Source: Bryoerythrophyllum caledonicum
Taxonomy: Eukaryota; Streptophyta; Bryopsida; Pottiales; Pottiaceae
Direction of reading: 5' to 3'
DNA length: 64,000 nucleotides
Assembly (NCBI GenBank): GCA_963971425.1
Contig: OZ020517.1
Location: forward strand, 10,108,501 to 10,172,500
The position numbers were made by a program, and so were the translations under genes. Positions 18,575 to 59,317 of this stretch are shown one piece after another. The notes below the pieces were generated by a model. That model searched no databases. It was given only the letters and a program-made list of their open reading frames with translations, and was not told the DNA's origin. The first letter of the stretch is position 1. Every line of letters begins with the position of its first letter.

Positions 18575-21500
18575 CTACTCATTCATGTCGGTAGGAAGTT
18601 CGTAATCGCTGTCATCTTTGATTTCAGCTCCACTAGATCCCGAAGGATCGTCTTCATTATCTGTGGCGAGTTCTTGTTTGATTCTCTCTTTGATCGACAA
18701 TGTTTTAATGGTTTTGAATCTCTTGTAAGTTCCAATGACATCAATGGGATTACTAGGTCGGGTGCGAAGAAATGGATGCATGGGAGCTTTACGTTTCTTT
18801 GTGTTGTTTGTAGGCGGCCTAGGTTGTAACCCTAAACCTCCCTGAACCTCGGGGTGATGTATGAAGAGCTTAGATAGAGGTACATCGCCATCACTAGGTA
18901 GGCCATCGGATTGGCGTTGCGGCGTTTGGGGTCGCACATGTTTTGAAAGGGACACCAAACCGTGGAAGGATTTCAAATTGGTTGTAGTGACCGTTGCAAG
19001 AGGGGTTGCAAATAGAGACTGTGACGCACGACTTTGCAAGGACGGTTGATTCTTAGAGGAAGATGCCTTCTTCTCCGTAACGTGAATGGGACTCCGTGTA
19101 CCGCCATTAGTACCGCCCTCCACAGTTTTCTCCCTGAGAACAACCGTGTCGTCTAGGAATGGCTCTTTCGTTGTTTGCTGGCGATTCTCCGCAAGTACGA
19201 GACCATGGACGCCTTCCTCAACACTCTTCTCTGAGGGCCCTTGCGTTTGTTGCCCGTGTTGTGCCGTTACACGTGAGGATGATAAATCTTCTCCTCCCTT
19301 GTCCTTCGTGTCTTCGGGAAGTGGAGTCGGTCCACGACGAAGGGTATTATTGCTATTGACTATGCCGTCTCCATTCAAGTACCGCGCTATGGGCAACAAG
19401 TCATCTTCTTTCTCTGCAAGAACGTCGTCATCGACAAAATCATACTCGGTGATTGGGGCATCGTGAGTATGATCCATAAGTTGAGAAGAGCTGATGTCGA
19501 TGTCATCGTCTAGATGCTCTGCATCATAATTGGCAAGGGCACCGGTGCTTGAATCGTCAGAGTAGTCCGGGTCATCCGACTCACGTGGTTGTGGATCCTC
19601 TAAATCCAAGTTCTCCGCATACCACCTCTTCTCATCCGTCAATTTTGCATTCGCAAGCAACTTCGAGTTTGTATACACAAAGACCAAGTCATCAGCCCTT
19701 CCTGGTAATAACCGATTCCGTTTCTTGTCATGGACAAAAGAGTAGCTACTCCAATTGCGTTCGCAAGAAGAAGATGACACCGTTTGTTCTAGTATTCTCT
19801 TTGCAATTGGTGCAAGGAGCTTTCCACAAGCACCTTCAAAATCCCACCAAGCATACGGAGAACATTTTTGGTCCTTAGGATCCAACATGTCGTGGAATGG
19901 TACATCCTTGTTTCGAAATGCGAGGAACTCGTTCACCACGTCCGGATAAATCTTAGGATCGCATAGCTTTTGTAGTACTCGTTTGCATGCCGTGATGACA
20001 TCCGGATCATCGGCCAATTCTTCGTCATGGAGTAAATAAGGATTGAGAACTGCTCCGGCGGAATGTAAATCCGTGGTCATCATCCATTTCCGTGCGTAGA
20101 ACTCGTCCTCAACAATGAGCGCTAATCGCTATCGAGACAGAATGGTTCATTACGCAACGCTAGGACATGCTTCTCGAGGTCGCAAAGGATGTGCAAAACC
20201 TTGGGCATGCAAGGTTCCTTGGCATGGATTCCCGAAGCGCATACACTATAGGGGCTACCATCTCTTGGAAGTTCGTGCACCGCTCCCAGAAACTCTCATT
20301 TAGAACCACTCTTTTGATGGCTCGAGAGATGACTACTTTATCTCTAGCCGAGAGTGACTTCCTAGAGGCGTATGCCCGCCATTCAGGATCAACAACGGTT
20401 TGCTCCAATGATTTCTTGACCTTTAGCATGCGATCTATCATTATGAAATTACATGCAAATCTTGTTTGCCCGGGGAGCAATAGGCTGAACTTGGCCTCGT
20501 ATTTATGAAACACGGCGAGGGGCATTTGCCGATTCTTGACAAACTTAACCAAGAACTTGGCCTTCTCGAGAGTTTCTTTTACCCATTTAGCCTTCCCCTA
20601 GTCCTCCAACAATAAGTCCATGGCATGCGCGGCACATCCTTGAATGTATATGTGTGGATATTTCTCAACAATCAATGTTGAGGCATTGAGCATGACTGGA
20701 GCATTGTCAGTACACACTTGAACAATGTTGTGGGGGCCAACTTGTTCAATGAACTTGAACATGATGGATGTCAGGTACGCAACGTTCTTTTCTTTGCCCG
20801 TAGTATCTACAGCTCCCAAGAAGAGTTCTATAGCGGGAGACACGAGCATTGCATTGCACAAAGGGCGACTAGTCACAGATGTCTACCCATCTATGGCTAG
20901 AGTTCCTCTAAACTTCCGAACACTCTCGAACAGTCTTTTATTAAGTTGTGCTTCCAAATCGGCCTTCGCTAGTCCCAACAACCTTGTCCAAATGTCATGG
21001 TAAGAGGGTGGGACATATGGTTTTTTGAAAGAGGCAGTCTTCATCACGGCTTCCTTGAATGCAGCATTCCGTGCTATAGCAAACGGCATGTTTGCTTTGT
21101 AGAAAAACTTCGCCCACACTTTGTCTAGCTCCCGCCGCTCCACTTCTTGAAAGCTCTCTTCGAGCACGGATTGCCTCACCAATGTGGGGAACGTAGCACC
21201 TACACTCCCTTGTTCGGTGAAGTCATGGAAGGTGGGGGTCGGTTCAACCATGGTTGATGGTAAAATCATGGGGGGGGCTTGAGTGGATCCTACACAAGAA
21301 TCTTCACCGGTGGACTTGGGCGTGCTATATCCTGAGGCAGGCGCAGATTTCAATGGTGGGGTGGGGCAATGTTCGGAGAAAAGTTCTCCATTGTGTTTTG
21401 GGTAGTGGCGACGACAATTTTTAAACAAATTCTGTACGCGGGATGTTAATTTGGTGCAGAGGCCAACACCGCTATAGCGCTTGCCAGGGAGTTCTTCGTA

Positions 21501-21635
21501 CCCGAGATGACTTAGCTGTCGTTCTAGCCTTCTAGCAAAAATGCGGTGACAAAGATTGCATTGGACGAAGTCCGTCTTCTTGCCTTGTACTTCAGTGATT
21601 TCGATATACCAAGGAGACCAAGGTTTGGTGGCCAT
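18575..21635 (-). pseudogene. hAT transposase (BED finger, DUF659-like core, dimerisation domain), broken
   Basis: The frame starts at 21635 (MATKPWSPWYIEITEV). A BED-like finger (VQCNLCHRIF, then spaced His) is followed by the DUF659-type core: PFAIARNAAFKEAV, PYVPPSYHDI, VQVCTDNAPVMLNAS and GCAAHAMDLLLED. The last part (18575-20083) holds the C-terminal hAT dimerisation motif SSSCERNWSSYSFVHDKKRN and a long acidic, low-complexity tail. Breaks: TAG at 20883 (a Trp position, IDG-W-TS), TAG at 20598, and at least two frame changes between about 20090 and 20230. Intact hAT transposases of this type are usually 600-800 residues; the roughly 300-residue tail beyond the dimerisation motif is unusual and fully open. 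It shares a GC-array-bounded unit with the convergent RING gene. Confidence 0.85.
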
Positions 21636-21909
21636 TCTGATGGGTGTAGTATCGAGAAATGAACAAACATGATAGGTAGTATGTGGAAGAAATATCAGGA
21701 GTTCCGAAAGAAACTTTGATATTCAAGACTTCCGAACTCGATGATTACCAAGCAATAGATACATAATGTAGCTCAAAGCTCTTGGGAAACAAAAGTTCAG
21801 AAAAGTAAATGAGGCTCCATGTACTGTTTTCTTTATACTCACAGTGATTCTGACCGTTGGAAGACGATTCGTTGTCAATCTAATTGGGGACGAGGGAGTT
21901 GTCGTGAGA

Positions 21910-31759: not shown

Positions 31760-32834
31760 ATGGACGCCATGGACACCGAACACCCCCACCCAGGAGTTAT
31801 GAAGAACACAGAGACTGAAGAGTTAGTTTCAATGGCAAATGGAGGTCCAACCCTATCCAAAAAAACTAGAGGTAAATATTCCACCCCCATCCAGGTCTCC
31901 ATCCCTGACCTCTCTTCATTTCGATTTTGGTTGGGCTTCTCCACTGTGGAAAATCTTGCCATAGATGCAGGACATGAGCCCCTATTTAGTAGAGAGAGCG
32001 TTAGAGACATGATCACTCGTGGAATACCCAAGAAGAAGCAGAGGAGGCCCTCGGCGCCGTGGTGGCCTATCCTAGGATCCCACAACTCTTATACTCTTCA
32101 GTGCCCAACGACAACATCAAGGGCCAACACTACAACCTTACACAGGTACCCTTTGATATCCCTACACACCCTATCACTAGACTCTCCTATGATTTCCATG
32201 TGGCAATTCACTTCGAATTGCCACCACATCCTATGTACCATGATGATATGAAGAGGCTAGCCCTAGCTAGGCTCGAACACATGAAAATACCATGAGGCAC
32301 TAACCTAATGGACCCCATGGCTGTTCTATGCAAAGGGGTCAAAAAAGAAGGACAAAAGGGTGTATGGTCAGGCACTATCAAATTACATCTCCTCATGCCA
32401 GAGGTAGATGCTATTGCCCTCCTTCGAGGCACTTGATACTTCATCCTACATCTGGACCCCATAGGACAGGCCTCCTTAGGGAAAGTATGCAAAACTTTCC
32501 ATGCAGTAGCACGGAAGAATTTATCAGTGCGAATCAAGAGTGAATCCCTCAAAGGTGTGACTGCGCACACCCTCTTCCAAGATGTGGTGACAAATAGTTT
32601 CTCGAGAAACTTGGAATTCAAGATTACAGATGTGCAAAAAGTATAGGAGGATTCACACGCCTTTATAGTTGCCCCAACCCCTCAACAAGCTAAGAAATTT
32701 GAGCTCCACCAAATTACCACACACCATGAGGTGATACGAGCGCGTGCTAGTGGCTCTGGAGGCCTCTCTCCAGCTGATAGAGCCAAAAAGAACCCATTGA
32801 CGGTCACCCTTTCCCATCTCCCATCTTGGGGATC
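31760..32834 (+). pseudogene. LINE ORF1 (gag-like), N-terminal part
   Basis: The frame starts MDAMDTEHPHPGVMKNTETE. After about 100 residues the sense reading shifts by one base (near 32050) and goes on through stops at 32293, 32434 and 32644 to a point (SPADRAKKNPLTVTLSHLP) where the MULE begins at 32835. The protein is basic and shows no zinc knuckle in this part; FHVAIHFELP and HAFIVAPTPQQAKKFELHQ may be parts of a nucleic-acid-binding fold, but I cannot name it. The downstream half resumes at 50187. ORF1 proteins of LINEs bind the element RNA. Confidence 0.5.
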
Positions 32835-32905
32835 GCTATTTTGCGAGCCTAGAGCCGCGAGCGGAGAGCGGCGAGCCTTGGTTTGCGAGCGTAGAGCGCA
32901 AAAAA
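32835..32905 (+). repeat. left terminal and subterminal repeat of the MULE
   Basis: GCTATTTTGC followed by GAGCCTAGAGCCGCGAGCGG-like GCGAGC copies, ending near AGAGCGCAAAAAAG. Confidence 0.65.
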
Positions 32906-33650: not shown

Positions 33651-36600
33651 TCATGATATAATGTCGAAGTCTACTTCTACCTCATCATCGATATATCTAC
33701 GAACACGTCTGTCAAAACGCAGAATTGGCGAAGAACCAGTTGGTGATGATATGGTTGCTTGTAAATTTGCCACTTCTTCATCCCATGGAGACATGACAAA
33801 GTCTCTCACCGGTGACACGATAGCAGCAATCAGTCTGGAGTACAAAAACATGGATCAGTGGATATGAAGAAAAATAAAAACAGCTCAACAATATGAAAAG
33901 AAAATTAAATGAGAACATATGTACTCAATCGGTTTCTTCGAGTGACTTGACGGATGGGCACGTCAATATCAGGTGCAACCGGAGCCGCTGAAGTGGAAGC
34001 TTGGACGTGAACGGCTTGCTCGGAAGTCTTGAACTGAGAGAGCATTGCTTCAAAGACAAGGAAGTCATCCTCAAGGGCTACAATGTGACGACCAATGGTT
34101 GTGCAAGCCCAAATTGAATTTCCTAGAGACAGAGAACAATTGTTATGGGCAATCAAACTAGAATTAGAAATAGAGACTACGAACATGGGGAAGCACTATG
34201 TATCAATTGTTGGCGTGGTGTCAAGGACCACATCTCCACGCTTCGTCAGTGCCGCGATGAGAATCTGGAGGAAGACCGAGTCTTTCTCACGAGCACCTCT
34301 TCAAGGAATGGAACCATTCATGGATTGAGACTCAGAAGAAGTAAAGTTGAAGAGGACGTCCGTTTCCGAGACCCCCATGCCAAACTCCACGAGATCTTCA
34401 TGCATAGAAATCAAGAAGCAATTACCTTCCATTGCGTTGTGGATGAAGAGAAGAATTCGAAATCGACAACACTGAAATAGTTTAGAAAGGGAGTTAGAGA
34501 ATGAACTACAAATGGAATTAGAAATAGAGCTCTTCAATAATGAATTGTGGAAACGAGGGAAGACACCATGAATTGGATAGAAAAGCTAACCTTAACTCCT
34601 GGATTTGTATGCGAGGAAAGCGGAAGGTCGTTGATTCTCCACCACTCTCGGTGCAATTTCAAATTATAGGCCGCAGCATATGAGAAGACGTCTGTTCGGA
34701 TACCAGGAACGTCAGGGGCAAACACCAGCATTGCACCTTCTTTGTGGAGAAAATTCTCCGCAAATTCGAACAAGTAATCCACATCTTGAATTGAGTTTCA
34801 TTCCAAGTTGGAATTTGAGTTGCATTCACGGAGATTCCTGGAACAGAGAGGCCATCCTTCACATTTGCCATAATCAATGCAAATCCAGAGTGTTTGCAGT
34901 GAAGCGAGAGTGCGGCGTTCCCAGTCTCTTTCTTCACCTGTAGAGGAGGTAAAACAACATTAAATGAGAAAGAAAGGTATAAATATCAAGTTTTTAGTTT
35001 CATGAGAAGGACCGTACTTGGAGCCCAAAGTTGTTAAGCTTCGTGAGGCACTCGTGAACTTCTAATAGTTTCTCCATCATTTGGCGGATGCTCGTCCGCT
35101 CCACTAAGACCGAAGCAGGATAAGATGAAGCAGAGAGATCAGCTGATTGAACCTTGGCCACTTTTTCTTCAATGTCGTAGTGACAAGAGACAAGGGACTG
35201 AAGAGAGCTTGCAACAGTGACGGCGAAGAATGCAAGGTCCGGGTAGCAACGGATGCCATAACGACGTCGTGGGCTCTGTCCATGATCTCCATGTCCGCAT
35301 CCACATCCGTTGCCATAGAGGCTGAATAAAGGGTTGCCTGCTTCGCCGTGATCACTGCGATAGCAGCTTCAACACGACGCTTCATACTTGCTTCCGCCTC
35401 AACTGCCAGAGCCTTCAATGTAGCAGTAGCTTCAGCCTCCGATGCAGCTTTGGCCTCCGCGGCAGCTTTCTCCATCATAGCCTTCTCTTCAGCTGCCACC
35501 TTCCTCTTCGATCCTCGAGGCTCCTTCACTACCGTTGCTAGCTCTGGAGGCACCAAAACTTTGTTACCAACTAACTCAGGTTGGATGCGGTTCCTGAGAG
35601 GAATGTCGAACGACGGCGGCTTTGTCAATGGACAATCCAAGTACCACCGACAGCTCTGCCAATGTTGATGGGCCCACTTCTTGGCGATAACATTGGTGAT
35701 CATGCAATTGTCCGAATCTCGATCCGAATAGCTTTCGAAGAATGCAGGCGTCTTCGATAATGCATTCCTCGGGCAAAGAATGTAGAAGAAGTATCGGTAC
35801 AGCATCCGGCTGACGGCCTCCGGAAGTCCTTCTTGCAACTCTGCAGCACGATTCGTGTGCACTCCTTTTGAACCCAACTCATCATGAAACGCCAAGTCCC
35901 ATAGTTGAATTCGCATCCTTTCCACCCAATCTTCAATTGTTGGAATGGAGCTCTTGCCGTCTAGGTGATAATCAATCGATTCGCCAAGCTCAGATAATGT
36001 AGAGTCAAACAAGATCTTCACCTCGGACGACAGCTGCATTAACATGACATTGAAAATATGTTTAGAAATTAAAAGTTTGATGGCTGAAAAATGTGATGGC
36101 ATAGGGATTTGAAACTAACTTGTGCCCACCAAGTCGCCTTCGTGAGCCACTCAGGAAAGCTATGGTCTATAAATTTTCCCTTTGGAAATTTAACAGCAGC
36201 GCGCAAGGAAGCTGGCTTGTTCCAACGCTCCAGCCACTTCACCTTCGAGGCGGCGTTCATTGCTGAGGTTGATAGGTACCAAAGCTTTTCTTGAGACATC
36301 TCAGGGTCATCCTCGTGACTCTCATAACGAAGTCGCACTTGTTGAAGGAACTGAGGTGTGTGCTTGGGATCTGCAATCGGTAGGTGCTTCTTCAGTTCGT
36401 TATGCATCTCTTTCGTCACTTGCTTCACTGCCTTACCAATTGACTCGTGCAACTTAACGGTTGTCCACTCCGATGACTTCTCTGGATACTTCTCTTCAAA
36501 CATTCAAGTAGCATGCGCCACGGCATCACCAAGTTGTTGCTATAATAATTAGACAACAAATAAATCAATAGATAGACAGTGAAAGGGTAGAAAATTGAGG

Positions 36601-37868
36601 AAGGGAAGTTCCCATGAGCAGGCAAGGAGCCTTGTACACTCTCCCGAGGAATCCCACTGGTCAGCCAACAAGTACCTAGTTGAGGCAGCCGACAACGGCT
36701 GCTCCAGTGGAATGCGGAGTGGACATTGAATTGTATAACCCGGATGCATGTTGATACAAAAATAATTGAAATGAAAAACTTCTGAGGGGTGGAGAAAAGT
36801 ATTACTGACCTGGTAAAGAATCCCAACAAGTGAATCAATAGTAAGTGTGTACCACGTATTTGGATTTGACTTGTGCTTCTTCTCTGCATCAGCAATCTCC
36901 TAGGAGGAGACAAGTTTCTCGAAGTACTTGAGAGGCTGACCAGCAATTCCCTGAAGGCGATAGAGTTTGTGCACGAGATTGGTTTTGACGTGACCAGTCT
37001 GATTTCTCCTACACACTCAACACAAAGTTGTGAGGAAAATGTTATCGAAGAAGAATGAAAGGCAGACTGTGAACAATATTTACCAATTGACTTGGTGAAG
37101 CGCCATTTGAAGAGGTCCAACTTGACCTTCCACTTCCAACACGATAGACTCCACGGAGTAGTGCCACGGTGGATCATCATCATGATCTCGATTAATAATT
37201 GGCAGCCATGTTGCAAGTCGATGGTTACCATCCCACACGAAAAACATCTTCCCGAAAAAATGCTTCCATGCGCTCTCTCTGTGCAACTCCAGCTCGAAGG
37301 CATCATTGGCGTTCTTCCAAGCTTGACTCCACTTCTCAATGTCACTCGGAGTGACGTCCAAAGTCTTTCCTTCATTGTCTTGAAGGACAACATAAAACAC
37401 CCCATGTCCATCCATGTAGCCAGTGCCAACAAAATAGGCGCTCAAAGCAATGACGTTGTTCTTGAGGTATGGCCTCACTACTGCAAGTGCCTTCATCCTG
37501 CATAGGGGAATATTTAGTTTAGACTTGCTCCTTGGTTTAAATCGGAGCCTGTCAAGTACAACATTTGTATTGACAGACTCTTTAACCACCATTTTGTCCA
37601 TCTCCTTTCAAAGGTCCTCTGCAGACATCTCTCCGTGCTCCTCAGAATCTGCATTGTCTTGAGTTGCATCATCCTCATCAGCTGCCAAAGGATCAAATCA
37701 CATATCAAAAATAAGCTAACAGGGATCACCTGAGGTATAAAAACATGAGCAGAATTGTTTGAAACAGGCACAACATTGGCTAACCTGATTCAAGTTTGTC
37801 GGGTTGCAATGAGTCCGGACGACCCCTTGATTGCGTGCCACTCGATGGTGCAAGTGAAGTCTCGTTGC
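33651..37868 (-). pseudogene. ParB-like (DGNHR) plus beta-class DNA-methyltransferase-like protein
   Basis: Ten exons can be traced: 37795-37868, 37084-37681, 36810-37008, 36120-36539, 35018-36033, 34591-34937, 34426-34471, about 34204-34396, 33925-34122 and 33651-33834. Most junctions are GT-AG; the donor near 34203 reads AT. Exon 2 holds MFFVWDGNHRLATWLPII, the DG-x-HR-xx-A core of ParB/sulfiredoxin-fold proteins. Exon 5 has an Ala/Glu/Lys coiled coil (KAMMEKAAAEAKAASEAEA). Exon 6 shows ENFLHKEGAMLVFAPD, as after methylase motif IV. Exon 8 has FLQILIAALTKRGDVVLD (motif X then I) and exon 9 has GRHIVALEDD. This order is that of permuted, beta-class N4/N6 methylases. Where DPPY is expected the copy reads ANVKDGL. 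Stops near 37609, 36901, 36504 and 34319, and frame changes near 35230 and 34780, show decay. It may be an element-borne gene or a captured host gene. Confidence 0.65.
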
Positions 37869-37948: not shown

Positions 37949-38341
37949 TCAACAGAAAATAATGAGGCGGCCAATATAGACAGAACCCTCCTCGCCATGG
38001 CCGTCGTCGGCCAAGATGACGGCCATGGCAAGGAGGGCGCCCTCCAAATGTTTCTCCTGAATCTCCACCATAGTGATGTTCGGCAACCCCAACAGTCCAT
38101 AAGGAATGGATCCATTCAAGGAGTTTCCTCCCAGCCTCAGTTTCAGCAGACTCTGGCATGCTCCCAAACTCTCTGAGATAGGGCTTGTGAGGTGATTCTC
38201 TAAGAGGATCAGCCATTGGAGCTTCTGGACTGCGAATAAGTTCTGAGGGATTGTGCTGGTGAGCAGGTTTGATAATAGACCCAGGAGCGTCAGGTTCATG
38301 ATTTGTGCAGCACCATCGACGAGTTGCTTTGAGCTGGGCAC
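37949..38341 (-). pseudogene. captured fragment of a CLV1/BAM-type LRR receptor kinase
   Basis: About four plant-type leucine-rich repeats on the minus strand: NLTLLGLLSNLLTSTIPQNL, QWLILLENHLTSPISESLG, SLLKLRLGGNSLNGSIP and LLGLPNITMVEIQ. The sequence resembles the ectodomain of CLAVATA1/BAM-like receptors. There is no signal peptide, membrane segment or kinase. It sits between the methylase-like gene and an SNF2 fragment inside the MULE, as expected for transduplication. The edges against non-LRR sequence (near 37990 and 38340) mark the capture limits. Confidence 0.75.
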
Positions 38342-38426
38342 ATGCTCGCGAATGCAAAGGTGCTGGGCCTTTCACCTGTCTCAATCGCAGCCATATAGTG
38401 GAACTTGAATAATCAGTTTTATAAAA

Positions 38427-38929
38427 CTAACAGCTGTGCTGAATCAAGCAATGTTGTGGGTAAGACGTTAGATCAATGGGGAAGCTGAAACTACTCACAG
38501 TGTGCGATTCGTCAAGCACAACACGCCACCAGTTCACAGTGAGAAGGGGGCAAAATTGCTCTACGAATCCTGAGCCATGTCGCGTGGCTTGCGTAGCCTT
38601 GCTAAAGTCAGTACCCAAGGTTGCGTATGTTGTAATAACCTGCACAAATGACCAAATGCATGATGTTATGAATCACGTAAAATACTTTTCATCTTTGGTT
38701 TTTCTCAATCCAGTAAATTATTCAGTATCTCAGAAAGATAATCAGTGACAACCTTCACATATCTAATCTTCTTCAAATCCTCGTAATCGGCTCCCACGAC
38801 ACCATTATCACTTCTTTGATTTGCGACCTCCACACCATTGTGCCTCCCGCATATGACCGCAAGCAAAGTGTGAACAACGCGAGAATTGTTCGACACTCTC
38901 GACATCCCCGCCGTCGTATTCCGCAACAT
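38427..38929 (-). pseudogene. captured fragment of an SNF2-family helicase
   Basis: The minus-strand frame at 38427-38645 contains VITTYATLGTDFSKATQ and NWWRVVLDESHTV, the region around helicase motif II (DExH) of SNF2/RAD5-type ATPases; here the box is DESH. A preceding exon-like piece at 38705-38760 (DYEDLKKIRYVKVVTDY) fits the segment before it. The rest of the helicase is absent. It lies in the same orientation as the neighbouring captured fragments. Confidence 0.7.
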
Positions 38930-39651
38930 GGTTCCTCAACAAACTCGTCCTCTAATAATCAATCACCAGAGCAAACTGATCGCCGCCTCACAAAACTCAC
39001 TCGCATAATGCTCCCAAGAATCCCACATGTTGACCACCAAGTGGGCATTGCTGCTCAAATTACAGAAACTCACGTACCCTTTTCCACTCAACAACATGCA
39101 CTCTCATGTCAAACTCACGTACACAAAAAATAAAAAGTCCTTCACAGACTCATGTCATCGCCAACAACAAAAAAACCACCATCACTACTACACGTGAAAA
39201 AAACTATTTCTCCTCTTCCACACACGAAACGACCACCCCTCCTTCTCCACCGATTCTCGTCTCAAGCCCGAAGCCCAGACCGCACCTACTGCAGGCCTGG
39301 ACGGGAACAGTAAGTGTAAAGAAGGCGGGCGGGCACGGGAGGCAGAAGGTGGAGGAGCGTTGGAAGGGAGGCAATGCGGTTGTGGTGCGGCAACAGGGGC
39401 GCCTGTCATCGATGAGGAGGAGCGCGAGGGAGCAAAATCCGGTTCTTCTGTTACAGTCACGGTTCGTTGGAAATCCTACTCTTGCTTGGTTCAGATCAAT
39501 GGAAGAGATCGGTGATCAAGTCAGAGTAGTTGTCGTTGAAAGCGAAGAAAGAGTTCAACCATGAATGTTAGCCATCTTTCTCTCGTACATGAACTAAGAA
39601 TTCCTTAGATCTGACTTTACAGTTACGTGCTGGTGAAGAATGATAAAGGTT
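38930..39651. other. MULE interior between captured fragments
   Basis: It includes a plus-strand open frame (39106-39564) without recognisable domains and a GC-rich patch near 39240-39480 that may be the captured leader of a host gene. Confidence 0.3.
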
Positions 39652-40402
39652 TTACAGGTTCCTCGCCATTTTTGCAATCCCATCTTTGAACGAATGTGAT
39701 GCAGTTGAGATTAAGTCATCACAAATGCTACATACATCTGCAAACAAAGGGCAACAGGATTGAGCACCTGCAAGATCCTTGAAGTTAAGAGTGGGAGCAT
39801 CGCCACCGAGGCAGACAAGCATTTCCTTGGGAGCCAGGCAATCGAGAGACGCTGTGAAGGTGGTCTTTCCGACCAAATCGAACACGACCGCCACGCCTTC
39901 TCCAAACGCTGTGAAGGTGGTCTTTCCGACCAAATCGAACGCGACTGCCACGCCTTCTCCAGACGTCGTCAACTCGCGCACTTCATCCACAAAGGAGGAT
40001 TCCGCTGCAACAATCACTTCATGGCACCCACTGATCTGTCGTGCGCGTTCCACGTCGTCCTAGGACGCCACGGTTCTGATCATGAGCGCCTCCAGGTGCC
40101 TAGCCCACTGCGCAATCACGGACCCTAGCACGCTGGCCGGGTTGTGCACCAGGACGGCGTCGCCGCAGCGCACGGAGGTGAGCTTGTGCAGCAGCATCCA
40201 TGACGTGAAGCCTGGGAAGAGCAGCGCCACGGCCTCCTCGTCGCTGATGGTGGCGGGGATGGGCATCAGGAAGCTCGTTGGCACCACGCTCGCCGCGCTG
40301 AAGCCTAAAGGCGCCCTTGGCGGGCGGGTTCACGTAGCCCATGCGCTGGCCCACGCGGTGCCTCAGCACTCCCGTCCCTGGCATGCATCTTAATTCAACC
40401 AA
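39652..40402 (-). pseudogene. captured fragment of a quinone oxidoreductase (zeta-crystallin-like MDR)
   Basis: Read from 40402 downward: GTGVLRHRVGQRMGYVNPPA, a one-base frame change near 40300, then ISDEEAVALLFPGFTSWMLL, DAVLVHNPASVLGSVIAQWA (the nucleotide-binding turn) and VFDLVGKTTFTASLDCLAP. This is the order of the NADPH-binding domain of medium-chain quinone oxidoreductases. A stop at 40057 breaks the frame. A 57-bp unit (39850-39906) is duplicated in tandem, giving FDLVGKTTFTA twice. The fragment is markedly GC-richer than its neighbours, a sign of a different origin. Confidence 0.8.
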
Positions 40403-40640
40403 GAGAATCAGGCTCTAAGCACACACCAACAAAGCACATCCATCAGGCAACAAGCATAAAGTCGGTCACGCAACAAGCACACAACAACAACAGAGCGCAT
40501 TCATCAGGCAACAAGCACACAGCACATCAAACCGCATGATCAACAAGCACACAACAAACAATTAGCGCATCCATCAGTCTTCAGAAAACAAGCACACACA
40601 CACACAACAAAGCGCATCACGAAGGTGGAGATGCGTACCC
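40403..40640. repeat. degenerate tandem repeat with CAACAAGCACACA
   Basis: Several copies of CAACAAGCACACA and GCGCATCCATCAGGCAACAA alternate at irregular spacing. Confidence 0.55.
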
Positions 40641-41717: not shown

Positions 41718-42440
41718 ACTATCAAATCAAGCTGACCCTAGACAATGTCTACAATGCAACCCTCTAAAAGTTGAAGCCTTATATGATCCATGTGTATCAT
41801 TTGTATCATTTCTAGAAGGTGCTTAAAATTGACGCATCAAAAGAGATTGATTTTTCGTACTTGTCAGCATGTCTACAAGGAAGTAGGGCTAACAATATTA
41901 GTTGCACATTTTTGGGCCCTTCTCGACTGACGGTTTGATTAGAATCGGATCTCAATCTTATAATTAAGAGCCGCCCTTTTGTATTAACACCCTTGAAGCA
42001 CCACCCAATTTTATCATCAACTAAATCTTTTGCTTAATGTTGTAGAAAGTGTTCCAGCCATGTATTGCTCAGTTTATATCTGCGTTCAAAATGTCGATAT
42101 GGAAATCGACATGGCGGCATATTTATTGTTTGTAGGCCATTTTAAATCCATCTTCCAACCGCCTATTTATCAGTGACTTCATTTATTCAAATTAGTTGTT
42201 CAGCAAGTTGACTACCTACCTGAATTTGAGGCGGCGGCAATTCTACATCATTGCAGTCTTAATTTGATAAAAACTACTTCTCTATTTTTAACTACTTCTC
42301 CATTATTAATGCATCTTCATTACAGAATTCTTAAGTCCATCTCTATCAACCTTCCCTTTCAATGCAGTCTCTGCAAAATGCATCATTGCCCACAACAGAC
42401 AGTCATTTTCTGCAGCACTTCTCCAATTCTCTAGAATCAC
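41718..42440. promoter_or_regulatory. divergent intergenic region, possible bidirectional promoter
   Basis: AT-rich and free of coding frames, between the divergent 118-residue gene and the transposase. The role is inferred from position only. Confidence 0.3.
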
Positions 42441-45400
42441 ATGGCTCTCTCAGAGGATTTGATTTCTGGATCTGCTGTAATTCATGGTGCTAGTGATAAT
42501 TTACCTATTTCATTTCCTGTTCTTGAGGATGGTCTCGCTATAGTTTCTGGGAATTGCTTAGCTTGTATGTTCCACTTCGTAGAAGAGAGTCTCCATGTTG
42601 ACCTTGTTGTGGTGGACCCGCTGACAAGCAATGTCACTCATACTGTTGCTCAGATGCCCTGCTCTTCTCACGGATCGAAGTCTTGGTTACTAGCGCCTGG
42701 AACCTATAGAGTCTACGGGACTGTGGACAGTGGTTCTAGCAGTGCTTCGTCCAAATTAAATCCTGCTCCTTGTTGCGCTGCAAATGATGTGACTCCGCTA
42801 CTTAGGAAGGTAAAACTTGAGCCGCCAGACAACCCAGTTCTCCTTCTAAGTGATGATTCAGACAGCGATGGCATCACCCCTGGTTCCCTGCCTAGCGTTC
42901 GCAATCCGAAAGATCCAGTAACTTTTCCTCAATCTCCTTCGTCTGAGCCTATAGGTCCCACCATTTGCAAACCCCCTCGCCCCTACGGAAAGTGTGGTGG
43001 ACTGTCTCCGACTTCTTAGCACCCGACGTGGTTCAAAGTCAGTTTTGTCAAAATTGGATTACAATGCCATTCCAATTTGCAAGGTTGATTTCCTCCCTCC
43101 CCAATTTGATGGAGATGTCATCTCCGAACTTCCTTCTTTGGGAAAGTACCTTTCATCCTCAAAGGCTGGGCAGCTACACGGAATGGATAAGCGAGATGAC
43201 GGCCACGCATGGACACGAACTTCCACTTCTCACATTAAATCCGAGTTTCACCTCACCTTTCGAATGTCTAACTGTCTGGGCGAGCTGAAGTGTGCTAATG
43301 AATCATGTGATTATCTCAATCGTCCGAATAGATTATCCCCTATCAATGAAACTGAGTGGGAGGCCAATTCTGCTTCTCCATTTGTGCCTGGATGTGATCC
43401 TCCTTCTCATTCCACCGTTGTCTGCGCTGTGTGTCAAGTTCCGCCCACATGTTCTAGGTCTTGCAAAGCAAAGATATATTACGTCCTTGGAGAAAACCAT
43501 ATGACTCGTGCTTGCATCCATTTGAGGTTGCATGGTCATGCTGTGAAAAAAGGAAACTACAGGGACTCGTCATTGAAGATTCGTTCCCTCATTAGCGACC
43601 AGGTGGAGCGAACTCCCGTAGGAATAAATTCCTCTATTGTGCGTGAAGCTAGTAAAGAGTACCTTGGGGAGTTATTGTTGCGCCCTGATGGTGTTCCAAT
43701 GAAGACTTTGGCATTTGAAGAGCTTGTCCCTGTCTTGGACAAGTTTAAACTGATGTCTTCTCCTAGCATTCGGAACAAGGTGACAACGTTCCGTTACCTT
43801 CGTCATTTTGGTGTAATGGATAGCATAACCAAACTTCGGGGGTCCAACAGTTGGGCCTTCATCCAAGAGAATTGCTTTCCTGGCCAAGGTATTGACTCTG
43901 ATAAAGTCTTCATATTTAAGATGGCTGAGGTTGGTCCGGGGTGTGGAGTTGATTTAGTTAAACGAATGCAACGTGGAGGTGATTTAGAGGACTCCTGGAT
44001 GATGTTTGACCATGTCAAACATGTGAAATCTTAGACCACTATGGCTTGCCATGTGTACGATTCTAGTTACTGTCGAATCATGACCATTGCTGTCTGCGAT
44101 ATGCAGTCCAAAGATGTGGCAGCGCAGTTAGTGTTCTGGAAGAATCTCAACGCAGTTTGTAGCAGACATGACCTTCCCAGTCCAGAATGCTGTTCGAATT
44201 TGCTACGAAAGTGGCGACCCAGCCGTCCCCATGGAGTCCAGAGAGAGAACTTGTCTTTTTCACTAGGTTCAGTCTCTCGAAAAGCATACTAAGGCTGATA
44301 TTCGAACTGACCTTCAGGATTAGCACCGAAGGCTTTGTAAGCAATACAAGAATTCCATTTCTTTGGAGGTGGCTAAGAGCAGGTATTTGGCAATAAAAGC
44401 GTGGTGGTTGTCGTCGGGCGCAACAACTGATGAAGGTCTTCCAAGACTAGACCTGTGGCTAGCCTTTTCGCATTTCCGATATCGGCAGTGGGAAGGATTT
44501 ATGGAGCTGGTAAGTTTCTTAATCCGCTCTTTTTTAATATTGCTTTTGAATGTGTCATCAGAGACCATGAAAATGGACGCCTTAGTCGGCAACCTGCCTC
44601 GTCACTCTACAATTACATAGATTACTGTAATTTCAATTTCATTTCTTTATCATAGCCGATGTCGGCAACTTCTTCTTGGTAGACGAGCCTACATACAATG
44701 GTCTGGCCATGTCAGTCACTGGACCAATTCTGACATTGCCGATGTCTTTGTTTACAGAATAGTATATTAATCTAATGAATGTGCATGACAAGACTTTAGT
44801 CTTCCGCTTTTTGGGTAGTCGTTCCTTCTGTGACATATTCACGTCTTCAATGACTTCCTGCTTTTGTATCTAACGCCATACTGTCACTAGAAGAAACCCG
44901 TGTTTTTTGTTACGTCTTCAGTCATGTCCTGGGAGACATGGTGACATCCGGATTTACATCCTTCGGACGTACTAACGCGTGTAACACGCTGTAACGCGCG
45001 GGGACATCACAAAAAACGTGTGGACATCCCCGTAACACAGACGATTTTTGATGATTTTGGGAGGCTGAAAACAGTGCCAACTGGGCGCCACGTCGACGAC
45101 ACCTAAGCGGCAGAATGACGGGCAGTGCTACATGGCCGGGAATTTCATCCGATCCAACGGTGACGTGGAATCTGACGTGGCGTCGGACCTAAACCCGGGA
45201 AAGAGTGACGTGGCAGGCCACGTCAACAGAGATTTGCGTGGTTTTTTTTCAGATTCGTGTTCGCGGGGACGTCATTGGTAACATGGCTGTGTTTTTTAAG
45301 ACATCCCGGGTTGACGTGGAGATGTCCTGCTCGACGTCTACGCCAACGCTACCTGGATTTTGATGTTGATTTCATTGAACATCGCCATGCCCTAGAGGAC

Positions 45401-48400
45401 GTGGCGATGGACATGATCGCGTCCTCCAATACGTTGCCGACCCATGGCCGTCGGCATTGAGGGTGTCATCGCAGACGTCTCAAAGAACTTATGCGTATCT
45501 GACGTGACATCCCCTAATGCATGGTATTGCTGACGATGTGTATGTGATGGTGTTTTGGAGGGACATCGAGAGATGTTATACAAGACATGAATACGTTGTA
45601 CAAGACATGAGTATGTTGTACAAGGCATGAGTACAAGACATGAATACCTCATCATACATGTAACATGTACATTCATCCAAATTCATGCTTACTGGCCTAC
45701 TTGCAAATGTGGTAATATGATATACACGCAATTTAAAATATGAATGCCTTCCACTTTATAGTCATTACATAGACGAATACAGCCTACACTGTACTCAAAA
45801 TTGAACATCGCTAAAGTGTCACAACATCGTAGCCTAAAACATTGCCGTGTTTGTGAACATGTCCAGGAATGTCTCCATAGACACGGGGATGTTTCAAAAG
45901 ACGTCCCTGCGTTTCCTAAGTGCTGCGGTATACGTCTTCTACAACATGGTCACATCTACATGTCGCTCACAGCACATTGCATGTCCAACACTACACATGT
46001 TCAACAGGCCAACAACGCATGCGGTTAAACAAGGGATTTACAAAAGAAGGAAATTGCTATAAATCTAGTTAGTAGAACAACGTCCATAAACTGTTAGCTC
46101 TAATCACAACACTATGTGAACGTTCAACATGCCCCACAAAGTGCAATACAACCTGCATCATGTGACAAGACGTCTCTTGGGATGTTCTACCAAACATCTC
46201 AGACGCTCATGGAAACGTCGACGCGTTTGATTCGACGTCTTTGAAGACGTCTTCTAGATTTCCCGTGTTGTTCATATATCATGCAGTGGCTCACCTAAGT
46301 CTCATTTGGGCCAGCATTAGATTGTGCAATTACTCGCCTACTTGCACGCATTTTTCTTCATTTCTTCTTTGCTGCCTCTATACTTTCAAAGTCTAATTTC
46401 TAACCTCTAAACTCTATTCTATATAACTTTAACCTCTACCCTCTAAACTCTAACACTCTCAAACTCTAAAACTTTAACATCTAAACCATACACTCTCAAA
46501 TTCTAAAACTCTAACCTCTACACTCTAAACTCTAACATTCTAACTTGTAAACTCAGTCTACACTCTAAAATTCCAACCTCTACATTCTAAACTCTAACTG
46601 CTTGGAGAAATGAAGGCCAAAGTGAGCTTTGTGCAACCTCAAATTCTACTTAAAGGTCTCATGACCTAACTATGGTTGCAGCAGCTAACCCTAGCCGCCT
46701 CATGACCTAACTATGGCTGCAACAGCTAACCCTCGCCGCCTCTATTCATCCAATGAACTTGACGAAATTCATCCTACTTGATGGTTATGTTTTGCAAGAC
46801 ACGATGATGTTTTCCAGGACATGTCAATGTTTTGCCAAACACTGCTGATATTTTCAGAGACGTCTCTGTGGGATGTCCTCAAAGACATGTAGACGTTACT
46901 CGAGACATCTTCAATTGGATGTCTCGAGTGACGTGGACCTATACACAGAATGACGTGTCACCTTGTCCGACATGGAATTGTGTTTGCCATGTAGATGAAG
47001 TATTGTAAACTACAAAATATATAATATGTCCACATGAGTAAGCCACCAAGGACTTTACAAAATCACCCTAAATTCCTTATAATTCTGGTTTTGGTAGAAA
47101 ATGGTATTTTAATATTATATTAATTAATAAATATTATTTAATTTTTTAATATACAGTACTGGATTTAATATATCCGCTTTAATTACAGAATAATCAGTTT
47201 TTATAAAATATTATTATAATATTAATTAATATTTTGTATTTTAAATATTTAAAATTAAATTTTATTTTAGAAACCATTTTGATACGAAGTGGACAAATCA
47301 GAAATTTTAGAGGATCAAAGTTAATAAATATAATCAGAATATTCTTCAATTTTATATTTTAAATTTTTTAAATTTTTTTTTTTTTTAAATCTTGTTTTAT
47401 AAGGCTCGTGCCCTTTTGTTTCTCTCCTCTTGCATACCGCTACCCGTTTCGCTGTTTTTTTTAACGTTGGGCTGCTTTCTACCTTGCACAGTAGTGACTT
47501 CGACATTCTTATCCCAGGTGAAACGCTTGTCCGCTGCCAGCGTGGCAGTTTTGCGTCACCCAAGATGTCCTTAATGACGTCCTCAGAGACGGGCGCGTTG
47601 TTGGAGACATCGTCGCGTCTCCTATTTCACACGCGCGTTTCGGGACCCTCCCACCTCCACTGTTCATAATTGACGCGTGGACATCCTCACGTTCACGGGG
47701 ACATTACTGGCTAGCTCCAAGACATCAAAAAAACACGCTGACATGATTAAGGACATAACAAAAAACACGGGTTTCTTATAGTGTGTTCTTACGATTTATT
47801 CTAACTCCTGAACTATGATTCTTTCGATTTCTCTGTAGAACCTCACTGAAGCTGAACTTGTTGAGATGCCATCCTGTAATTTGGCCAAATCAGTTCATAA
47901 CAAATGGTTGCAGCAATCGGGAAAGAGAAGGAATGATTTCTACGTTGCTGCAGTCGACGACATGGTTTGTGCTTTTATGCAGGTTGTGGCTTACTACCAA
48001 TTCTTGAAAGGGGAGAAGCCAGGTACGAGTCCCGGAAAGGAAGAACTTCGGCTCCGTACTGTCCATCGCACCGTCCAACGTTCAGGAAATGCCAAGGTCC
48101 TTCATGCCGCCCTCGCCAACATGCCTGGTGCTGAAGAATTCTGTACTTGCAATCCTCACCTTGAAGGAGAAGAGGAATTTGTATCCTTGAAGAGAAAAGC
48201 TGATCTTCCTCCTGGATCTGAGTTTGATTCGCATCGCCCGGATAAGATCAGCATCTCCCGCCCTCGGGGTAAAGCAATTCGCATTGATCAAGTGGTTGTC
48301 GACCTTACTGCTGAAGATCCTCTGCCGTCCTTGCATCACTCTCCGGAGTCCCGTGCAGGACTTCATTCATCTCCACCTACAACTTCAGCTTGCGTTCCAC

Positions 48401-49287
48401 ACGTGAAGAGTGTAGAAGAGACAGTCTGTGATGAGAATGAATGGCATATTGCAAGGCTTCCGAAGACATCTGCTAGGAAATGTTTTGCTCTACAAGCCGG
48501 TACAAGGAAGAAGTGTGTTGCCACGATTGTGCACAACAATCGACCTACACTTGCCCCTACATACACTGGTCTTATGGACAATTACAAGAAGACTAGGTTG
48601 GAGAGACATCAGTTCTTCTTCTGCAGCAACGACATTCACCGTTGTGTTATGGGCACAAGACGCAAATGGGTTAAAAGTATGCCACCTCCTCCAGAGTTCT
48701 GGCCTATTCCGATGGGCACTAACCTTAGCAGAACGGAGATACTTTTCCTTGAAAATGCCGGATTCCGTCTTATTGAGCGTCAGGTTTTATCTCCTCGAAA
48801 GCTGTTTGGTGCAAGCATCTCTGTGAACCTAAACGATTACCCTACTCCTTCTAAACTTGATGAGCATCCAACCAAGTGATATGGGAAAAACATTCGAAGG
48901 AACGAAGCTGCTCCAACTACTCGACACCATAACAGCTGCGCTTCTGCTCTCTCTGTAGTGGAAAAACTTAGCGCAATTCTGATGGTCCCGCCTCCAACAT
49001 TGGGTTGCATTGTCACTCTAGAGTCTCGAAACATTTCCACAGTTTCACGGTATTTTGTTACAGTCGGCCAGTTTCCAAGCTGCGACTGCCTATCGTTTAC
49101 AGAGATGTCCAAGAAATCACTCGGCAAACGCGGTTCATGGATTTATTGTAAGCACTTGTATTATGTATTCAATATTGTATGTGGTTTGGATCCGGAGGTA
49201 GATGTGTTCATTCATGCACCTAGTTTCAGCTGGATTGAGATCAAACGAATTCTTCAAATTCTGGTGCTTAAATTTTACAGTGCATAG
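42441..49287 (+). pseudogene. MuDR-like transposase with C-terminal SWIM finger, two exons, broken
   Basis: Exon 1 (42441-44509) starts MALSEDLISGSAVIHGASDN. It continues after frame changes near 42980 into a domain with two Cys clusters (CANESCDYL; CAVCQVPPTC), then KVFIFKMAEVGPGCGVDLV and SWTTMACHVYD-like sequence where the Trp is a TAG at 44032, then IMTIAVCDMQSKD. Near 44180 the frame changes and sequence appears missing; two further TAGs follow (44256, 44322) before AIKAWWLSSGAT. The donor is GTAAGT at 44510 and the acceptor CTGTAG at 47838. Exon 2 (47839-49287) ends, after a TGA at 48877, with CDCL..(19)..YCKH, a SWIM zinc finger (CxCxnCxH), typical of MULE transposases. Catalytic DDE residues cannot be assigned with confidence. 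Without the CACTA insertion the intron would be about 430 bp. Confidence 0.75.
44885..47783. mobile_element. non-autonomous CACTA element, 2.9 kb
   Basis: It begins CACTAGAAGAAACCCGTG and ends with the reverse complement of CACTATAAGAAACCCGTG; the inverted repeats match at about 27 of 30 bases. It is flanked by the 3-bp duplication TGT (44882-44884 and 47784-47786), as expected for CACTA/En-Spm. The interior carries many GACATC, GACGTC and GGATGTC motifs in both orientations near each end, typical of subterminal repeats, but no transposase. A degenerate CTCTAAACTCTAAC stretch lies at 46380-46610 and an extremely AT-rich part at 47090-47390. It is inserted in the MULE transposase intron, hence younger than the MULE. 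Confidence 0.92.
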
Positions 49288-50129
49288 CTGCCGTTTCCTG
49301 TCGCAAAACCTTGTACTGCGACTCTCCTTCCATTGAAAAGGCGGTGAGACTAAAAGGGCCACCTCCACACTTTGTACTACATCTTGTCAATCTCCAATTC
49401 TACTCTTGCAAAAAAGTGTGAATACAGGTGATTCACAGCGTCTGATTATCTTCCCTGTAAACTCTAAACCTAGTTGAACCTCTCATTAAACCTAGGTCCA
49501 CTAGTGATTTTATTTCTTTATCCTCTCTCGCACTTGCCCTAAACTTCTCAAACTCCCTAACTCTCTTAAATTCGCAGTATTTGCTACTTTATCACCCTTA
49601 ATGATCTTAAAATGTTTATCTCCTAATTGAACCATTTCCTATTGGTATCCCATGAGACGTGGGGGTCTTTTACTCTAACCCCAATTCTATCATTATCCAT
49701 AACTATCGCCAAAACCTACCTTCTAATCTCTAGCTCTAGTTACTTTACCCTATACCCTAAATATCAGTATCGGTACTCTGAATTTCTAAACCCTAAATTG
49801 TATCCTAAACCTCAACTACAACCTCCTTGTCCTCCACTCTTACACAGCAATTTAATCTATACTGAGCCCCACTTTAGAGCTTCATGTCCTCAGTAATCTT
49901 GTCTGTTTTTTATTCGTAGAGCAAAAAATCCACGGTCATAGGTTCATTCTTAGAATAATATCACCCAAATTGTCAACTTTACAACCTCTTCCGTTCAATT
50001 TCTACACCGTCCTCCACAGTAATAGGTCCCCTGATTTTCAGCTATCCACCATTTCCACCAAAAAAAATCCCTTTAAACTTTCGCTTTTTTTTTGCCTTTT
50101 TCAAATTTAGAACAATGTATTTGCCCAAA
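49288..50129. other. 3' flank of the transposase, no gene
   Basis: Rich in CTCTAA/CCCTAAA-like words but no regular repeat and no coding frame. Confidence 0.35.
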
Positions 50130-50186
50130 GGCTCGCAACCGTAGGCTCGCAGCTCGCGGCTCGCAAAGTTGGGCATGCAAAATAGC
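50130..50186 (-). repeat. right terminal and subterminal repeat of the MULE
   Basis: GGCTCGC repeated four times in about 40 bp, then GCATGCAAAATAGC at the end; it is the inverted counterpart of 32835-32905. Confidence 0.65.
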
Positions 50187-50777
50187 TTGGTCCTCTCCAT
50201 CCTTTTGAGCGTGGCAGAAACCACGGCAGCTATTCATCAAACATTTGAGGCCAAGAATGTCATCTCCCTATAGTTCCACAAGCAGCAGAGAGGAATGCAC
50301 AATGGCAGTGCCAATGTGCAATTCCCTAATCCCATCATCTACCGCCAATTTTTACAAAAGACATTCACTATAGGGCGACATCAAGTAGAGATTTCTCCCC
50401 ACCGCCGCAGCCTTGAAGGTGATGACCCATCCACCACCGAATTGTTGGAGAAGTGGGGTTTTAATGGCATCAACAAAGCCCTCGTAAACACCGTGGCGTC
50501 CCTCCAAGCTACCCCAGCTCGTGCAAGCATTACCAGATTAGAAATGACCTCCATTATAGATGCAGACAACAAGAGACTGCGTCAGGAGCTCTCCACCCTC
50601 AAAGAGGACATCATCAAGGATACAAAGGCCTACACCGATAACCGCACTAGTGAGTTACAGGCGAAGCTCTCAAACGTTGAGCAGCTGATGACCTCTGCAC
50701 TGACGGCTATGCAACAAATTACAGGATTGCGGCCACCAGCTATCCCAGCCTTAGAAGACCACTCAAACGTGGATTGA
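50187..50777 (+). pseudogene. LINE ORF1, C-terminal part
   Basis: Directly after the MULE end a frame resumes (SILLSVAETTAAIHQTFEAK), crosses one TAG near 50263 and runs to 50777. It ends in a helical, coiled-coil-like segment (NKRLRQELSTLKEDIIKD and TSELQAKLSNVEQLMT). No zinc knuckle is present. Together with 31760-32834 it would form a protein of about 550 residues. The exact join at the insertion point needs the target duplication resolved. Confidence 0.5.
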
Positions 50778-51770: not shown

Positions 51771-52071
51771 CACAAACACATCAAGACAAACACACAAACA
51801 CCCACACACTTGCACACACATTTAAACACACAAAATAAAACCACAATACACATGAACACACATATACAAAAACACATATACAAAAACACATCCACACAAC
51901 CAAATACACACACATAAGCTCAAAAACACACATAATATATACACACATATACACATACATATACACACACTCACACGCCCACACTCGCAAACAAAAACCC
52001 ACTTACAAAAAACCGCAAAGACACATACAAAAACAAACCTAAAAAACTATAAACAAGCCCACACAAAGACT
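51771..52071 (+). other. A/C-rich leader of LINE ORF2
   Basis: CA-rich sequence continuing from the tandem repeat; no gene. Confidence 0.4.
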
Positions 52072-58000: not shown

Positions 58001-59317
58001 AAACTCATGGTCATCCACAAAACACTGGAAATTGTTACAACAAAATACAATAATGAACCAGCGCACATATTCACAGACTGCATTAACGCACTATACTTAT
58101 TAAACACCCAAATAACACACCCTACCCTCCACAATAGTCACCCCGACCAAATCATACTAAAATCTATGGTCCAAATGATACTAAAACGTAGACAAATCAC
58201 AACCATCCACAAAGTTCGAGCCCACGCAGATATTGATGGTAACGAACAAGCGGATAAACTAGCAAAAGAAGGCCGGTAAAAATCACACAAAAATGCCAAA
58301 GATCCACACAAACATGCCTACGCCACCCCATACTACTTCCAAAAAGAAGACTGGCCCTCCAGAGAAGACACCCCCGATAAAAGCCTGGTTAGATTTTTGA
58401 GCAAATACCTCAAAAAATAAGACCTATATAATAACCTTGACACAATCTCAGATAACTTTCCTAACATAGAAAAGTGGACTAGTAACAACAACATTGATAA
58501 TGAACTCTCTACAAATTTTTGGAAAAATCCCACCGTCACTGACACACAAATAACATGCCTCATCAAATTCCGTATCGGACAATACATGGGAAACGCCCGA
58601 AAACAACTCTTCTTTGGAACAAAAAGATTCCCATCCATAACATGCCCAATATGCACATCCACGGATCCCGACACATGGCTACATGTTTTACTTAAATGTC
58701 ATAACCACCACATATCCTCCCTAATTGTCAAAAGACATAACAAAGCCGTATGGAAACTCCGTAAACTAATCACCTCCCATAACAAATCAAGATGTTTTAT
58801 CCTCATGAATGCCGGCACCTTTAACAACAACCCACAAGAAAGCACGATCCCACCATGGCTACTCTCATGTACATGTGAAACCCAACGATGCCACTGCAAT
58901 GCTCGACTCAAACCAGACATACTATACGATAGAGGCCTATCATACAACGACCCCCCACCCGACCACATAAACCAAAACTACACCATTCAATTCATCGAAT
59001 TTACATATCGTAATGATAGATTTTCCCCTGAAACAATCGAAAACAAAATCAATAAATATCAACCCCTTATAGATGACATCACTGCCCTCGGATGGAAAGT
59101 GGACCCCCTTATGGTAATCACAGCCGGCGCACGCGCCACCACCTTTATCCCATCTATAAAAACCCTAGAAGATACCTTCAAAATTCATATTAATACAATT
59201 ACAAACACTTTCAAGAATATTAACGTCATTGCCATACAACACGCTATGTCCATCCTTCTACATAAACGCAAAATTGAAAACAACCAAGCCCTTCCCGATG
59301 CACAAGACCCCCCATAA
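52072..59317 (+). pseudogene. LINE ORF2: 2A motif, APE endonuclease, RT, RNase H, CCHC, KPD motif
   Basis: Domains in order, crossing several frame changes and stops. A 2A-like motif lies at 52288-52311. The APE-type endonuclease (about 52950-53760) shows VIVIQETKI, LLCGNFNRDIALIG and LNSDHSPIQLHI. The reverse transcriptase (about 54640-55480) shows NKAPRPDRIPNSI, GDPSILSNHRLIALANTIYK, HRGTIQGDTLSP and AYADDLAT; its motif A reads VHFKNAFGSIDH, with His (CAC at 55048) where the catalytic Asp belongs. A long thumb/linker frame lies at 56007-57460. RNase H (57840-58280) shows YYIDGSF, HIFTDCINALY and ADIDGNEQADKLAKEG; its catalytic Glu is changed to Lys at 58001. The CCHC knuckle CPICTSTDPDTWLHVLLKC lies near 58640, then RHN, then ARLKPDILYDRG near 58905 and IQFIEFTYRNDRF. 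The last frame (58586-59317) is intact. The copy is dead. Confidence 0.85.
52288..52311 (+). other. 2A-like ribosome-skipping motif DIETNPGP
   Basis: The codons for LLLLSRDIETNPGP match the 2A consensus D(V/I)ExNPGP, preceded by a hydrophobic/basic stretch as in known 2A peptides. It is about 73-80 residues into the frame that starts at 52072, upstream of the endonuclease. In viruses and in some trypanosome and animal LINEs such motifs make the ribosome release the upstream product between Gly and Pro. Function here is inferred from the motif. Confidence 0.8.

Follow-up and report, generated by a model that had tools for sequence, protein, structure and literature searches.

A spliced ParB- and methylase-like gene between the paired ends of a probable Mutator-like DNA transposon in Bryoerythrophyllum caledonicum

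Transposon genes that join a ParB domain to a DNA methylase have been described in algae, the closest system being that of the brown alga Ectocarpus, in which the 21.5-kb Sola-1 element Sola1-1_Ec32 has an opposite-strand gene for a 1104-amino-acid protein with ParB and N4C/N6A methylase domains, predicted by its authors to make N4-methylcytosine (4mC) or N6-methyladenine (6mA) (PMC12477816). The same paper reports similar ParB-methylase proteins in green and red algal transposons, citing Iyer 2011 and Petroll 2025, as well as giant red algal EnSpm elements that carry accessory genes, without stating that ParB-methylase genes lie inside the latter (PMC12477816). In parallel, a 2025 survey found ParB-N6_N4 methylase fusions to be frequent in phages and prophages, and described members of the ParB fold that bind adenosine or guanosine triphosphate (ATP, GTP), including ATP-binding ParB fusions to methylases dependent on S-adenosylmethionine (SAM) (PMC12704722). 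Two more systems are relevant: VANC of the VANDAL Mutator-like elements (MULEs), a transposon-encoded, sequence-specific protein that counters the silencing of its own element (PMC5735166, PMC10398659), and N4CMT of bdelloids, an intron-containing eukaryotic gene for a bacterial N6_N4 methylase of permuted order, described as a host gene that was acquired horizontally, bears a chromodomain and is reported active in E. coli, and an example of a bacterial beta-class methylase functioning in a eukaryote (PMC8885841). Here we describe a minus-strand gene at positions 33651 to 37868 of a 64,000-nucleotide stretch of the Bryoerythrophyllum caledonicum genome (assembly GCA_963971425.1, contig OZ020517.1, positions 10,108,501 to 10,172,500; “the window” hereafter), which joins domains of the ParB/sulfiredoxin (Srx) fold and of beta-order methylase-like type in one spliced reading, and which lies between paired ends with iterated GCGAGC. 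In our judgement it probably serves a large Mutator-like DNA transposon as an accessory gene and belongs with the algal ParB-methylase accessory genes, with a protein that binds its own element and a catalysis that has been weakened or lost.

The transposon is made up of the following features.

32826..32834, plus strand: candidate 9-bp target-site duplicate TTGGGGATC, set against TTGGTCCTC at 50187-50195; 6 of 9 bases identical, a weak match
32835..32895, plus strand: left terminal inverted repeat, starting GCTATTTTGC, with GCGAGC at 32843, 32857, 32871 and 32885 (14-bp spacing)
42435..44884, plus strand: first part of the transposase gene, zinc-finger-like and DDE-like by eye, with stops and frame changes
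44885..47783, no strand assigned: nested CACTA-like element; ends of 44 bp, 89% complementary (CACTA...TAGTG), and the 3-bp duplicate TGT on both flanks
47784..49287, plus strand: last part of the transposase gene, SWIM-like (C-x-C...C-x-H) by eye
50125..50186, minus strand: right terminal inverted repeat, first ten bases as in the left one, with GCTCGC at 50131, 50145, 50152 and 50159

The inverted ends at 32835 and 50186 span 17.35 kb, which agrees with the 17-kb element proposed in a sequence-only reading of this DNA; both begin with GCTATTTTGC and they can be aligned from base 1, as is expected of long terminal inverted repeats of the Mutator-like type, with a local score of 43, where 292 random window pairs reached 30 at most. 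Each end carries four GCGAGC sites at 14- or 7-bp spacing, and clusters of four such sites (on either strand) within 60 bp are found only at these two ends in the whole 64 kb and in none of 200 block-shuffled windows. The CACTA-like insert of 2.9 kb splits the SWIM-type transposase gene (42435-49287, plus strand), and the pieces of this broken gene gave no Pfam matches, so that the name MULE is based on the ends, a possible 9-bp duplication and the SWIM motif. The ParB-methylase gene lies between the inverted ends, on the strand opposite to the transposase, and its position between transposon ends alongside a SWIM-type transposase thus stands as first proposed, the SWIM motif being assigned by eye. 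It would be very improbable that this gene belongs to another element, inserted into the MULE or adjacent to it: the region does hold at least one nested element, the CACTA-like insert, but self-BLAST at E 1e-10 gives no repeat at 33-38 kb, the inverted pairs touching 33-38 kb measure only 20-29 nt (among the 25 of 27 pairs listed) and were assumed, without a test, to be chance, and the GCGAGC clusters bracket the whole 17.35 kb only.

The gene itself, a decayed copy at 33651..37868 on the minus strand, was modelled with nine exons whose joins were set by hand.

37785..37868, minus strand: E1, N-terminal part; genuine start not located
37084..37681, minus strand: E2, ParB/Srx-fold domain with WDGNHR; one stop
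36810..37008, minus strand: E3; one stop
36120..36539, minus strand: E4; one stop
35018..36033, minus strand: E5, including an Ala/Glu-rich stretch, coiled coil by eye; frameshift at about 35240
34591..34937, minus strand: E6, first half of the methylase-like domain, with NVKD at the motif IV position; frameshift at about 34785
34204..34471, minus strand: E7, methylase-like, with the RGAREK helix and the motif I strand GDVVLDTTPTIG; one stop; non-GT donor
33925..34122, minus strand: E8, end of motif I plus the following strand (GRHIVALEDD)
33651..33834, minus strand: E9, acidic C-terminus; out of phase with E8

The joined reading (37868 to 33651) has about 1,109 residues, running from the N-terminal part through the ParB-like exon, the middle exons, the alanine-rich Ala/Glu stretch and the methylase-like region to the acidic C-terminus. 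In this hand-made model all joins from E1 through E7 are in phase, the E7-E8 junction is also in phase (I-G-N-S) despite the non-GT donor after E7, and the splice-site dinucleotides are GT or AG at 15 of 16 positions. Furthermore, the reading of E2 stops at a common VN(W/R) point in all 19 homologues that reach that far, which can be read as a shared intron, and the stop in E7 falls at a W of the homologue P0023, described below. The gene carries four in-frame stops (three TGA and one TAG) and two frameshifts, and therefore this copy is dead. A minus-strand multi-exon gene had been proposed here with ten exons, and our model has nine: the stretch 36780-36560, maybe the tenth exon of that reading, was not adopted and lies within an intron of our model, given that E3 joins E4 in phase when it is left out.

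The ParB-like part is the better supported of the two domains. Its exon has 22 homologues, and the DGNHR motif, from which a ParB/sulfiredoxin-type domain had been suggested at the outset, is present in 21 of them and in the window (as WDGNHR), the 22nd, P0020, stopping short of the motif; we take this DGxHR-type motif to be the equivalent of the GERR motif of the ParB/sulfiredoxin superfamily. The domain gave a good AF2 (AlphaFold2) model, the Foldseek and VIA matches of which are ParB and Srx, with the “DNA methylase” of Mycobacterium phage Vincenzo also among the structural matches. Both the predicted fold and the DGxHR-type motif support placing the E2 product in the ParB/sulfiredoxin-fold superfamily. 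The best related Pfam row is DndB (E 0.006) in one of the 23 members of the ParB alignment, which is suggestive only; no Pfam match in the composite protein corresponds to the helix-turn-helix or C-terminal dimerisation domains of canonical ParB, and a profile search of PDB with the ParB alignment A1 gave zero matches. The 23 beta-lactamase rows (E 0.34-0.56) obtained by phmmer of the ParB pieces against PDB were dismissed as chance. As a separate observation, a divergent homologue of the ParB exon, P0022 (38% identical in the alignment), occurs on 21 contigs, the longest of 46.5 kb, and may represent a repetitive member of the family.

Bacterial ParB is a CTP (cytidine triphosphate)-dependent DNA clamp, and a nucleotide-dependent clamp action of the domain here would be carried over from it by analogy. 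Nucleotide and clamp action are less fixed here than in the bacterial CTP model, because the 2025 survey includes ATP and GTP binders (PMC12704722). These binders, with the ATP-binding ParB-methylase fusions among them, would also favour a nucleotide-binding regulatory or enzymatic module, in the style of Srx or SerK, over a DNA clamp, and so would the plant and human sulfiredoxins that rank first in Foldseek with the model of the ParB domain; we hold this other function of the domain to be a real, if clearly less probable, possibility.

With respect to the second domain, E6-E8 are read as a beta-class N4/N6 methylase (motif IV first, motif I last), in the permuted order of post-IV strand, helix and motif I strand. 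By phmmer against PDB, the methylase piece aligns at motif I with DpnA and CcrM (E 0.85-0.92), and given that these values are unconvincing alone, a methylase profile was built for comparison by hhalign from E. coli YhdJ and its relatives in viral contigs, using 26 of 50 loci; those set aside were near-duplicates of YhdJ and others that were for the most part short or partial matches. The window protein matched this profile with a score of 45.5 (probability 87%, 176 columns). The controls scored lower: no more than 23.6 in 200 shuffles, 16.1 with the protein reversed, and at most 28.3 among the 113 stop-to-stop open reading frames (ORFs) of at least 100 aa in the window, some of which are pieces of the ParB-methylase gene itself; the permuted order first noticed by eye is thus upheld, and HMMER with the same profile recovered the motif I block in the window protein. 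A homologue of the methylase exons, P0023, the sole one among 25 candidates, matches at E 9.6e-18 with 46% identity over 45% of the query and retains PWRGAREK...GDIVLDWKASTG. PF01555 (N6_N4 methylase) is absent from the Pfam matches, its gathering score not being reached. Taken together, permuted order and profile similarity support the assignment to the beta-class N6_N4 methylases, less strongly than in the case of the ParB part.

The catalytic motifs are degenerate. In methylases of this type, motif IV has the consensus (D/N/S)PP(Y/F/W) and motif I the consensus DxFxGxG, and the window copy conforms to neither. The motif IV position reads NVKD (ALIMANVKDGL versus DLIFADPPYNI), unlike DPPY as already noted from the letters, a placement made by eye since the profile alignment begins just after it; motif I reads DTTPTIG in the window and DWKASTG in P0023, compared with DPFAGSF/DPFAGSG in bacterial members, so that the first Gly is missing in both proteins and only the second remains. 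With 0.042 as the share of random changes that produce stops, four stops over a length of some 1,109 codons correspond to about 3% substitution since selection ended. NVKD is five or six base changes (in twelve bases) away from the codons of NPPY/DPPY, and the chance of so many at about 3% comes, by simple arithmetic, to about 1e-5 to 1e-6, which is so unlikely that, as judged from one copy, the loss of motif IV is probably older than the decay of the gene. This same copy points to a methylase weakened or lost in its lineage. A different outcome, to which we give roughly half the weight of the favoured explanation, is an active self-methylating factor, the intact members of which keep an N4C/N6A methylase, motif IV having been lost only in this copy or sub-branch. 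It would agree with the 4mC or 6mA predicted for the Ectocarpus product (PMC12477816) and with the beta order and motif I strand retained in the window protein, but it is opposed by the distance of NVKD from NPPY/DPPY at the estimated decay and by P0023, which lacks the first Gly of motif I too.

Returning to a self-binding accessory protein, the ParB domain would load onto DNA of its own element, the iterated end sites being the most likely place, and in this way would bring the methylase-like domain to the element. By analogy, the ancestral protein would have placed 4mC or 6mA marks on the element, while in the present lineage the domain would more likely be a weak or non-catalytic binder of SAM or DNA, because NVKD replaces DPPY and motif I is damaged. 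The protein may then work as a sequence-specific marker, an anti-silencing factor or an end-binding factor, VANC-like in its role. A broader version, namely a widespread eukaryotic MULE-borne family assembled from partition and modification components of phages or plasmids, in which a ParB clamp reads the GCGAGC ends and the methylase is a non-catalytic reader or scaffold, seems to us unlikely.

Several observations weigh against the explanation that we favour. A single copy of the ParB-methylase gene stands behind the analysis, and the GCGAGC arrays at the ends may serve the transposase alone. The curated family models name no domain of the protein, the Foldseek E-values of the ParB model are at least 0.02 (PDB) and at least 0.004 (viral library), and an unrelated protein tops the PDB phmmer list for the methylase piece (E 0.3). 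As for P0023, it spans neither motif IV nor the region past motif I, its own match to the methylase profile is weak (score 30.4, probability 30%), phmmer against PDB gave two unrelated rows and zero methylases, and its single-sequence AF2 model was poor (predicted local distance difference test, pLDDT, of 53) and was discarded before any fold search. In summary, the profile and fold comparisons proposed for this gene came out in favour with Foldseek for the ParB domain and with hhalign for the methylase, but Pfam names neither domain.

Between the ParB-methylase gene and the transposase there is, in addition, a block of fragments reminiscent of gene-capturing MULEs.

37949..40414, minus strand: host-gene-like fragments, LRR-like at 37949-38371, SNF2-like at 38427-38672 and zinc dehydrogenase at 39652-40059

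In Pfam, the dehydrogenase is above cut-off (ADH_zinc_N, E 1.2e-11), and LRR_8 (E 9e-4) and SNF2 (E 2.5e-3) are both below it. Such neighbours would fit a capture in the style of Pack-MULEs, by which a host ParB-methylase gene was picked up without any role in transposition. We consider this unlikely, given that the neighbours are short fragments, whereas the ParB-methylase gene is nearly full length with its splice dinucleotides almost all in place, lies near the element end and opposite to the transposase, has numerous and divergent homologues, and agrees in length and layout with the Ectocarpus transposon gene as far as this is described. At one edge of the fragment block there is a 23-bp inverted pair (37986-38037). 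Elsewhere in the window, the ORFs at 18575-21722 resemble a transposase of hAT type that bears a BED-like zinc finger; an RNase H-like ORF and ORFs like those of non-LTR (long terminal repeat) retrotransposons, with the 2A-like peptide DIETNPGP, can be recognised by eye at 51856-59317; the identity between 57984-59298 and 9164-10502 is 77%; and 59670-60328 and 61306-61974 are inverted copies, 91% identical.

The origin of the gene was sought in sequence collections. Against 5.8 billion proteins, the full-length composite had no match at E <= 0.01 among the best 7,995 candidates (those with most shared words), and the protein matches found later are to exon-sized pieces rather than to the full-length composite. 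Zero relatives came from the ParB alignment A1 in viral contigs (27 pattern stretches) and prokaryote genomes (60 stretches), from P0023 in viral contigs (11 stretches), or from the alignment A2 in prokaryote genomes (38 stretches) and viral contigs (99 stretches), and the homologue P0001 was unmatched at E 1 by tblastn against phages; no close prokaryotic or viral donor thus came to light in those collections. For five proteins, PHROGs gave two weak rows of unknown function and NCBIfam zero matches. Thiamine_BP, POB3_N, CagE and further sub-threshold Pfam rows were dismissed as chance.

How, then, does this locus compare with the known systems? Phage ParB-methylase genes are not known to have introns, unlike the spliced gene of the window. 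Both have in common a ParB fold and an N4/N6 methylase on a mobile element (PMC12704722). With N4CMT, as described, the window gene shares a permuted bacterial-type N6_N4 methylase with introns, N4CMT being a host gene and the window gene transposon-borne. VANC is a precedent for self-directed anti-silencing and is likened here in role, not in sequence; it is not known to have a ParB or methylase domain. The closest likeness is with Sola1-1_Ec32, as its paper describes it: in both cases ParB-like and N4/N6 methylase-like domains are found in one protein, opposite to the transposase of a giant DNA transposon, of similar size in protein (about 1109 vs. 1104 aa) and element (17.35 vs. 21.5 kb). 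Unlike this brown algal element with its Sola-1 transposase, the element described here has a SWIM-type MULE-like transposase, and the methylase motifs of its gene are degenerate.

The observation made by the sequence-only reading is thus confirmed and its interpretation partly supported, but a lack of precedent for the combination of ParB and methylase in transposons is not supported: it is already documented in Ectocarpus and other algae (PMC12477816). Among the literature matches listed, this is the only on-point paper, and a MULE case may already be in print; what is possibly new is the MULE-like host, the end arrays and the NVKD methylase. If the MULE-like host is true, unrelated transposon superfamilies would have acquired this two-domain module on more than one occasion, and the module would therefore be useful to a transposon. 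The 22 homologues provide a starting set for the study of this module, binding can be tested directly on the iterated end sites, and the lack of the catalytic motif allows a test of whether the protein methylates or only binds. Likened by description and from one decayed copy, the gene fits the algal class of transposon accessory genes in architecture, length and layout, and with ParB-methylase passenger genes already known from other algal transposons, as far as these are described, we see it as a variation on that theme.
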